A stretch of DNA of 64,000 nt, taken from contig NZ_NKJI01000001.1 of NCBI RefSeq assembly GCF_002277815.1, positions 303,501-367,500 of the forward strand, given 5' to 3'. Shown piece by piece: positions 8,950-63,598 of this stretch. The translations under genes and the position numbers were made by a program. Numbering within the stretch: position 1 is the stretch's first letter; every line of letters begins with the position of its first letter. The stretch is from Pseudomonas sp. ERMR1:02 (GTDB taxonomy: Bacteria; Pseudomonadota; Gammaproteobacteria; Pseudomonadales; Pseudomonadaceae). Below the pieces are notes generated by a model. That model saw only the letters and a list, made by a program, of their open reading frames with translations. It had not been told where the DNA came from and ran no database searches.

Positions 8950-9468
8950 TCAACCGATTCGCGAAGCTCGTTTCCACCAAGGCGCATTGATCGCACGTCT
9001 TGGTTCCTCCCGATCAGGCAATACGTGCGGTACGTCTTGCAGTCGAATCCACGGCTGGTTATTCCAGTGCAGCAAACTCAACGACATTTCCGGCCAATTG
9101 AGCAGGCTTAGTTGTGGGCGTTCGGTTGTGGTGGGGTGTTGGGCGTCTCGCAGGGCGGGGACGACTTCGTGGGTGAGCCATTCTCGTAGGGCTCGGTATT
9201 CGGGGCAGTAGTGGTAGACGAGGAGGGCGTAGACGCCGGATTCGCTGATTAGCAGTGTGTTTTCGATGCGGCCGTAGATGAGGATTTTGATGGTTTGGTA
9301 TTGGTCGGGATCGAGTTTTCGGAGTTGGCGGTCGTTGAGGTAGAGGCGTATGAGTCGGCCGAGGTCACGGGCGCTGAACCAGGGTTGGTTTTGGAGGAGT
9401 AGGGCGTGGAGTTGGAGTTTGTGTCGGGTGAAGACATGCGGAATCAGGTAAGCGTCATCTCGATTCAT
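8950..9468 (-). CDS. BRO-N domain antirepressor-like protein
   Basis: 172 aa. The first ~105 residues match the BRO-N/phage antirepressor fold: NQPWFSARDLGRLI, then LLISESGVYALLVYHY and ALREWLTHEVVPALRD, the hallmark C-terminal block of the domain. A second weaker copy of the opening (WPEMSLSLLHWNNQPWIRLQDV, about residues 128-149) follows but is cut short. Such domains bind DNA in phage and virus regulators. No other phage gene surrounds it, so it is probably a domesticated orphan. The ATG at 9468 has AAAAGGAG upstream, and the 5' leader is unusually structured (see 9501-9629). Confidence 0.8.
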   Translation of the reverse strand: MNRDDAYLIPHVFTRHKLQLHALLLQNQPWFSARDLGRLIRLYLNDRQLRKLDPDQYQTIKILIYGRIENTLLISESGVYALLVYHYCPEYRALREWLTHEVVPALRDAQHPTTTERPQLSLLNWPEMSLSLLHWNNQPWIRLQDVPHVLPDREEPRRAINAPWWKRASRIG

Positions 9469-9500
9469 TGATACAGCTCCTTTTGCTTAAGGGCTGCCGG

Positions 9501-9629
9501 CAATTGTCGCCAAACAATTGGGGTGGCAGTTGTACGCGGGTTGGCGAACCGGAGCAAAAGGAACCCGGCAGACCCGAGAAGTCTCCCACGCACAACCGCC
9601 ATAACTCGATGTGGCGGTTAAACCCGCCA
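9501..9629 (-). promoter_or_regulatory. Structured mRNA leader of the antirepressor-like gene
   Basis: Read as minus-strand RNA: hairpin A/B (9624-9629 with 9612-9617); alternative hairpin B/C (9612-9619 with 9594-9601, eight perfect pairs); long stem C/D (9585-9601 with 9524-9540, 17 contiguous pairs including three G-U). Inside its loop are a 4-bp hairpin AGAC/GUCU and a CCGG/CCGG hairpin whose 12-nt loop GUUCCUUUUGCU is complementary to AGCAAAAGGAGC, the Shine-Dalgarno region at 9476-9487. A further perfect 7-bp hairpin lies at 9501-9520. B/A, B/C and C/D are mutually exclusive, as in an attenuator or translational switch. The pairing is seen directly; the function is inferred. Confidence 0.6.
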
Positions 9630-9678
9630 TCGGATGGTCGTCGTGCACCTTAAACTTTTTCCAGGTCGCCAAACCCAA

Positions 9679-9694
9679 AGCTGAATATTCAGCT
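9679..9694. promoter_or_regulatory. 16-bp perfect palindrome, candidate operator
   Basis: AGCTGAATATTCAGCT is a perfect dyad about 210 bp upstream of the antirepressor-like start and 50 bp beyond the structured leader, where that gene's promoter would be expected. Suitable as a dimeric regulator site; the regulator is unknown and could be the gene's own product. Confidence 0.4.
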
Positions 9695-9784
9695 GGTGGT
9701 GAGCTTAGAGACCGGATACTTGGCGGCGCAATCGGACGGCGGTGTGATTTTTGTAGGACTTTGCCGAGATTTTTGCGGGGCTTA

Positions 9785-19028: not shown

Positions 19029-19125
19029 GAGCGAGCATGCTCGCGATGGTCGTTAACGAAAACGCGGGGAGTCTGTATGCCCGCGTTGTCCGGGCGTCCA
19101 TCGCGAGCCTGCTCGCTCCTACAGG
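19023..19125. repeat. REP pair
   Basis: GTAGGAGCGAGCATGCTCGCG and an inverted GCGAGCCTGCTCGCTCC copy; begins inside the last codons of the DUF1289 gene, so the repeat supplies its stop codon. Confidence 0.85.
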
Positions 19126-19191
19126 TGTTCCCTTGTATATTTTTTGAGCTGTGATAGTGTCCGGATACGCCTCAACCCATCGAGGCTCGTG

Positions 19192-19228
19192 AAAACCCTG
19201 CCTTTTTCTGGCGGGGTTTTGCTTTTTT
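19192..19228 (+). terminator. Terminator-like hairpin in front of rnk
   Basis: AAAACCCTGCC pairs with GGCGGGGTTTT (one G-T) around a U-rich loop and is followed by GCTTTTTT. It ends only about 12 bases before the rnk Shine-Dalgarno, so an rnk transcript must either pass through it or start inside it. Confidence 0.75.
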
Positions 19229-53689: not shown

Positions 53690-53877
53690 AGGGCTAGACG
53701 CTCCGAAACTCAGGTGGTACATTCGGCCCCGCACTGGTTTCTCCATTGCCCCCTGCTAGCCGTCGCCGACGCTCTCCATTCGAATAAGTACGCGATCCTG
53801 TCGCCTTCTCCGCGGCGCGGCCTCATTAAGCCAAAAGCTTAATTTCCCCCCTCCATAAATGATTACGTCATTCCTAT
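53690..53877 (+). promoter_or_regulatory. rho leader, C-rich
   Basis: About 190 nt between the trxA terminator and rho. The middle (about 53735-53865) is rich in C and T and poor in G, as expected of a Rho-utilisation site; enterobacterial rho is autoregulated by Rho-dependent attenuation in its leader. No convincing leader peptide was found. Confidence 0.4.
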
Positions 53878-63389: not shown

Positions 63390-63567
63390 AGGCTCCCCGA
63401 ATGTGCCGCTGTCGACTTAGCCCTTGAACCCGAAAGTTCAAGGTGGAAGATGCAGTAGGCTTTAAGGCTTTCCGTCTAGCGGACATGCACACCAGCCCAA
63501 CGTGCAACCTCCAGGGTATAGCAAATCGGCTCAGGGACATCGCCAACTGGCAAGCACCCCAGGGAGT
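63390..63567 (-). ncRNA. ssrS: 6S RNA
   Basis: About 178 nt between zapA and the cyclo-ligase gene, the conserved 6S position. Promoter: TATACT at 63574-63579 on minus. The 5' end CTCCCTGGGGTGCTTGCC and the 3' end CATTCGGGGAGCC can form the closing stem; the 3' part GGTTCAAGGGCTAAGTCG resembles the P. aeruginosa 6S sequence as I recall it. Binds the RNA polymerase sigma-70 holoenzyme in stationary phase by mimicking an open promoter. Ends are estimated to within about five bases. Confidence 0.85.
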
Positions 63568-63598
63568 GATAGGAGTATACCGCAAGCGTTGGCGCGAA

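Follow-up and report, generated by a model that had tools for sequence, protein, structure and literature searches.

The minus-strand RNA at positions 9519-9606 of the window, the whole 64,000-nucleotide stretch of Pseudomonas DNA analyzed here, very probably silences the BRO-N gene lying behind it, as a C4 antisense RNA. In phages P1 and P7, C4 RNA shuts off the antirepressor operon, and this lock was first known from phage P1. Our naming follows the record of phage P1, in which the target a2 lies directly behind C4 and the target b2 at the ribosome-binding site, while the corresponding parts of C4 are a' and b'. The features are as follows.

8950-9468 (-): BRO-N antirepressor-like gene, 172 aa, ATG at 9468, PF02498 at E 2.8e-10
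9473-9497 (-): local hairpin holding the Shine-Dalgarno, from the fold, with part of b2 displayed in its loop
9476-9487 (-): b2 target AGCAAAAGGAGC, covering the Shine-Dalgarno
9506-9515 (-): a2 target GUUUGGCGAC, flanked by CAAUUG arms, an exact copy of a1
9519-9606 (-): C4 antisense RNA with helices P1, P2 and P3, RF01695 at 77.6 bits, covariation in 32 copies of the same genome
9524-9540 (-): 3' arm of the P1 stem, partner 9585-9601, from the fold
9539-9548 (-): a', the single-stranded segment of C4, UUCGCCAACC, complementary to a2
9553-9564 (-): b', the loop of the C4 anti-Shine-Dalgarno hairpin, GUUCCUUUUGCU, with 10 consecutive Watson-Crick pairs to its own target (copy L027)
9585-9601 (-): 5' arm of the P1 stem, partner 9524-9540, from fold and consensus
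9658-9708 (-): a1/b1 element, the duplicate upstream targets, a weak RF03163 match outside the coordinates of the earlier note on this DNA

The match to RF01695, the Rfam family of C4 antisense RNA, is full length and scores 77.6 bits against a gathering cut-off of 45 (E 1.8e-13 across the whole window), which identifies 9519-9606 (-) as a C4 antisense RNA; the C4 of phage P1 itself scores 68.8 bits. The RNA, which the earlier note could assign to no named class, therefore has one. The three-helix fold with b' in a hairpin loop and a single-stranded a' is present. The minimum-free-energy fold of 9460-9635 has -75.4 kcal/mol (z -4.15, equaled by 0 of 200 shuffles) and contains the 17-bp stem between 9585-9601 and 9524-9540 that had been described; two extra pairs in it reduce the 12-nt loop to 7 nt. 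The positions previously given for the CCGG arms (9565-9568 and 9549-9552), the 12-nt loop (9553-9564) and the Shine-Dalgarno-side target (9476-9487) were right, and the match of CUGCCGG to CCGGCAG stands as sequence, its coordinates having been off by 3-4 bases (actual positions 9565-9571 and 9494-9500).

The same genome holds 32 C4 copies over the cut-off, 9519-9606 among them; 14 control genomes hold none. Across the 32 copies, 98.4% of cells are paired in the 25 pairs of the C4 structure, compared with at most 44.7% in slid versions of it, and double-sided changes occur in 15 of the 25 pairs, a level reached by 0 of 500 shuffles. Sixteen pairs of the P1 stem are in the consensus, with 98.8% of cells paired. 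The covariation that the earlier note had asked for is there: it is strong in the stems, and loop and Shine-Dalgarno change together.

Complementarity links a' to a2 and b' to b2, the latter target lying at the BRO-N ribosome-binding site. The computed duplex energies are -19.7 kcal/mol for the b' loop plus CCGG arms with the Shine-Dalgarno region and -10.8 kcal/mol for 9536-9550, which contains a', with the a2 region. Upstream, a1 (9665-9674) is identical to a2, while b1 in 9658-9708 is imperfect, a partial match to the C4 loop. RF03163 scores 19.7 bits on 9658-9708 (-), under its gathering cut-off of 46.7 (E 0.011 in a 401-base search), and the a1/b1 region is conserved in BRO-N orthologues. 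The order a1, b1, C4, a2, b2, start is that annotated in the record for phage P1 immI, and the start codon follows the end of the C4 match by 51 nt in the present locus (9519 to 9468) and by 48 nt in phage P1 (48422 to 48470). What is more, the likeness to immI of P1 and P7 takes in the fold, the a' and b' segments, the duplication of the targets up- and downstream, the position of b2 at the ribosome-binding site and the antirepressor-type gene. There are also differences. In phage P1 an icd frame precedes the antirepressor gene, whereas here there is none and BRO-N itself would be the locked gene; the present locus is chromosomal, between yqiC/glnK and comM, with BRO-N only; and here there are many copies per genome, with different loops.

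The class, the fold, the covariation, the a'/a2 and b'/b2 complementarity and the retention in orthologues are all read from sequence, and they suggest the following mechanism. A single transcript would carry a1/b1, C4, a2, b2 and the BRO-N gene, most likely from a promoter upstream of a1. A consensus promoter scan upstream found no sigma-70 site; a TTGCGY...TAAGCT pair is conserved upstream in the orthologues, by our reading by eye. By analogy with P1 and P7, RNase P would cut C4 out of the transcript and C4 would act in trans. Its a' would pair with a2 and its b' loop with b2, covering the Shine-Dalgarno, and the BRO-N gene would therefore be off by default. In P1 and P7 fashion the block of translation would be followed by premature termination, which occurs behind a blocked start. 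Expression of BRO-N would require that C4 be outrun or titrated. Since the Shine-Dalgarno also sits in a local hairpin, C4 may not be the sole brake.

The earlier note had proposed a cis-acting translational switch. Its core, translational control of the BRO-N gene through a loop complementary to the Shine-Dalgarno, is very likely, but a riboswitch or thermometer is not the best reading of it. In such a switch (riboswitch, thermometer or protein-responsive leader) everything would happen within one RNA, with no antisense RNA released, and the P1 stem, an upstream hairpin and the Shine-Dalgarno hairpin would be alternative folds. Conservation of the Shine-Dalgarno hairpin in the BRO-N orthologues, where it is kept with a few compensatory changes, would fit this, as would the fact that the P1 stem can pair downstream through its 3' arm. 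GGCAG at 9494-9498 is an arm of the conserved hairpin; in related copies the C4 3' arm may pair alternatively with this downstream, GGCAG-type sequence. The RNAalifold consensus of 40 copies from other genomes indeed joins the C4 3' arm and the sequence behind a2 in a hairpin and not a' and a2, and the 3'-arm pairing has a modest cognate preference (6.91 versus 6.23 and 7.42 versus 6.57; 0-1 of 10,000 permutations). The consensus of the 32 own-genome copies gives the a'/a2 pairing unprompted, with five positions each showing three or four standard pair types. The upstream pairing that the switch would need, 9612-9619 with either 9624-9629 or 9594-9601, is not generally conserved: among 15 of the 30 aligned rows, the stretch is absent in L046, L053 and L058, although a hairpin resembling it occurs in L048 and partly in L074. 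Two further observations speak against a cis switch, namely that the duplicated targets a1/b1 and a2/b2 suit an antisense RNA and that the loops vary between copies along with the Shine-Dalgarno, as those of an antisense RNA would. We therefore consider a cis switch improbable. The riboswitch or thermometer was rejected as the main reading on two grounds, the assignment of the RNA to RF01695 and the lack of general conservation in the upstream segment. The locus is best read as an antisense-RNA lock.

That the gene encodes a predicted antirepressor-like protein, as had been noted before, is borne out by PF02498 and by matches to 11 PHROG families, 9 of them named anti-repressor. At E <= 0.001, a fold search with the BRO-N model retrieved nothing from the PDB. 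By eye a partial internal repeat can be made out in the protein, its C-terminal portion (LHWNNQPWIRLQDVP) being similar to an N-terminal segment (LLLQNQPWFSARDLG). At E <= 1e-10 the protein is matched in 143 of 249 genomes of the genus, and the 30 best matches (L045-L074, the window's own copy included) served as the orthologue set. The leader accompanies the gene in these homologues: a pattern test found the C4 hairpin loop in all 30, own copy included, and of these loci the 19 that were scanned with Rfam all passed RF01695. The BMFP gene (yqiC) and glnK adjoin BRO-N in 29 of the 30, the thirtieth lying at a contig end, and comM is inside the examined flank in 23. We take the neighbors to be comM, yqiC and glnK from their protein sequences; at the domain level they are Mg-chelatase/ChlI, BMFP and an ammonium transporter beside glnK. 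The BRO-N module is thus a chromosomal locus held at one place in relatives. The median dN/dS is 0.188 (435 pairs among the 30). The 30 matches have 11 distinct loops, which change together with the Shine-Dalgarno: the longest Watson-Crick run is 7.55 for cognate and 4.19 for non-cognate pairs of loop and start region (0 of 10,000 permutations as high). With several loops near-identical, 5 of the 11 fit their own start region strictly best.

These data bear on the view that C4 and BRO-N are inert phage leftovers in a decaying prophage remnant. The BRO-N gene does resemble phage antirepressors, and some other C4 copies of the genome stand before frames that look broken to us. At the BRO-N locus, however, the neighbors and the position are conserved, the dN/dS indicates purifying selection and loop and Shine-Dalgarno still change together; on these grounds we rejected a remnant here, and regard it as most improbable.

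The 32 copies allowed loop-target matching to be followed across the genome. Scoring by energy suffered from dilution by stem sequence and was replaced by a loop-only test, which takes the longest Watson-Crick run between the b' loop and the stretch about 12-62 nt behind C4. For the own-genome copies (n = 32) the cognate run was 7.28 and the non-cognate run 4.21, a difference reached by 0 of 10,000 permutations, and the cognate was strictly best in 20 of 32. A second set comprised 40 copies picked from a high-scoring list, 39 from the same genus and one, L123, from another genus of the order; L130 in this set is a BRO-N copy. Here the runs were 8.03 and 4.49, with the cognate best in 26 of 40 and again 0 of 10,000 permutations as high, all of these permutation tests being inflated by the relatedness of the sequences. 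On average, then, a C4 loop fits the start region behind it better than those of the other copies. The earlier note had asked whether the leader might be a non-regulatory dispersed repeat: dispersed it is, at 32 copies, but loops that on average match their own targets speak against a non-regulatory one. The preference has its limits. Eight own copies out of 32, and 5 of the other 40, have a cognate run below 6; non-cognate runs of at least 6 occur in 74 of 992 pairs in the own genome and 226 of 1,560 in the others; and once G-U pairs count as well, no more than 12 of 32 and 19 of 40 copies fit their own target strictly best. With energies, loop against Shine-Dalgarno region, the cognate is best in 6 of 32 (0 of 10,000 permutations as good).

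Runs of at least 6 between a' and its targets are found in 30 of 32 own copies and 40 of 40 others for a2, and in 30 of 32 and 35 of 40 for a1; for b' with b1 the counts are 19 of 32 and 30 of 40. Since many copies have an a' in common, a' fits its own target strictly best in no more than 7 of 32 and 7 of 40. C4 copies can lie close together: L121 and L122 form a tandem about 1 kb apart (G024:C45), and in a 1.5-Mb genome four copies fall inside 1.4 kb (G522:C9, 1700-3092).

With a criterion of C4 at most 600 nt upstream on the same strand, C4 precedes 20 of 27 DUF6124 and 4 of 5 DUF3077 matches in the own genome. Two BRO-N matches were included, one of them with such a C4 (a third, its place not listed, was left out). 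Seen from the RNA, 25 of the 32 copies precede DUF6124, DUF3077 or BRO-N, and 7 precede other frames. The 7 DUF6124 matches without C4 make 6 places, two being taken as one split copy. Among the 72 copies of both sets, 3 have no frame inside the search range; the first plausible frame behind the remainder matched, in Pfam, DUF6124 in 33, DUF3077 in 5 and BRO-N in 2 of 69 cases, and several frames look broken in our reading. Thirty-three of the proteins behind C4, chosen as alike, have K-x-x-P-x-P-P near the N-terminus in common. One DUF6124 protein model has a mean pLDDT of 76.4 (residues 61-110 about 89-98) and is confident only in its C-terminal half, a predicted helical hairpin; a fold search with it gave no PDB match at E <= 0.001. 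In a PHROG scan of 31 own-genome proteins 12 families were matched, 11 via BRO-N and 1 via DUF3077. The latter has phage relatives, since the DUF3077 protein L014 matches phrog_36471, a family of unknown function, at E 7.5e-12. A mobile or phage cassette was considered and rejected: one DUF6124 protein, taken as query, hit 1 of 50,697 phage records and 0 of 72,556 plasmid records. The a1/b1 element also occurs alone, without C4, before a DUF6124 gene at L141 (G000:C35; 57.5 bits) and, below threshold at 39.8 bits, before a BRO-N gene at L093; these may be either locks from which C4 has been lost or targets acted on in trans.

The flanks were scanned through the 64 longest stop-to-stop frames beside the 32 own copies. 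The Pfam families, 25 of 74 inspected, were mostly metabolic, transport and signaling, with transposase, PAAR, Phage_GPD and Phage_base_V (T6SS/baseplate-type) also present; the PHROG families, 25 of 37 inspected, included transposases along with general families, kinases and ABC transporters among them. PAAR was seen beside some C4 cassettes, in 3 of 64 frames, and VgrG-type (Phage_GPD) in 2 of 64.

Within the genus, C4 is found in 110 of 119 genomes at E <= 0.001 (109 over the cut-off), own genome included. The median copy number is 13, with at least 10 copies in 73 genomes; these counts are lower bounds, and 16 genomes have at least 33. In the class beyond the genus, 17 of 273 genomes have C4, with 1 to 6 copies each. 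C4 and c4-a1b1 are listed by Weinberg et al. 2010 (PMC2864571). A paper on Acinetobacter baumannii AB5075 gives 21 C4-like RNAs, cites predictions in Pseudomonadales and refers to processing of C4 by RNase P (PMC5320573). To go by the passages on C4 in these papers, published work already covers C4 in Pseudomonadales and, for Acinetobacter, a multicopy set. The AB5075 'Group 1' sRNAs resemble the present set in number per genome (21) and in their variable recognition loop, and are described in that paper as apparently processed at a GGW site; what the present set adds to that account is a matching target directly behind most copies and identified protein families (PMC5320573). In the portions of the literature consulted, we found no paper on C4 control of DUF6124 or DUF3077 genes.

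The repertoire and the loop-target matching can be seen in the sequences themselves. A further step, which we put forward as a tentative and rather doubtful one, is that Pseudomonas carries tens of self-contained C4 cassettes in which small genes (DUF6124, DUF3077, BRO-N or an unnamed family) would be RNA-locked, with loops diverged to their own targets, so that the cassettes would form insulated switches. The logic would be that which keeps P1 and P7 heteroimmune, in the treatment of these phages in PMC12197685. If so, the locks could be opened singly, or all at once on a failure of processing or termination such as phage attack might bring; the independence of the switches and such a sentinel role may be features of the set, as candidates only. 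Two uncharacterized Pseudomonas families, DUF6124 and DUF3077, and a conserved BRO-N gene would become predicted targets of a well-understood phage RNA, which gives a hint of where multicopy C4 RNAs find their targets, and the dozens of natural loop/target pairs are material on how antisense RNAs keep apart.

A sample of 20 chosen, more distant BRO-N matches has C4 upstream in 6 (L077, L084, L085, L087, L091, L092), with a second C4 farther upstream at L087. Another 8 (L075, L076, L080, L082, L088, L089, L090, L094) have sRNA-Xcc1 (RF02221) there, and 6 have neither over threshold. sRNA-Xcc1 is thus like C4 in lying upstream of BRO-N, but it is a different sequence family, and its downstream complementarity marks a predicted target. 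Its b'-like segment matches the sequence just downstream with a run of 6.38 versus 5.02 (n = 8; 19 of 10,000 permutations). A UUUCUUA-type segment has a matching downstream stretch of 7-8 nt in 7 of 8, L088 not fitting, and is nearly identical between copies, without covariation (5,552 of 10,000 permutations). sRNA-Xcc1 may be another lock of the C4 kind, one that perhaps also controls symE in Xanthomonas integron cassettes, and the lock reading would suggest a function for it. At five BRO-N loci with no C4 or Xcc1 match (L078, L079, L081, L083, L086), CCUCUACG-type segments face, by eye, a GUAGAGG-type start region, perhaps a third C4-like type.

IsrK-orf45-anrP of Salmonella Gifsy-1 is alike in that a small RNA is processed from the leader of an antirepressor operon, in the accounts of PMC4825925 and PMC12197685, and differs in being prophage-borne with a leader ORF (PMC4825925). 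In PMC4825925 IsrK is likened to P4 CI/SeqA, and 'c4 rna' occurs 0 times in the main text. At L009 the Rfam isrK model overlaps an a1/b1 element (1603-1691, (-)), which suggests that IsrK may be the a1/b1 part of a C4 system. The other Rfam matches over cut-off in the window are ordinary: 6S RNA at 63390-63568 (-), the Pseudomon-Rho leader at 53722-53821 (+) and the rnk leader at 19123-19228 (+).
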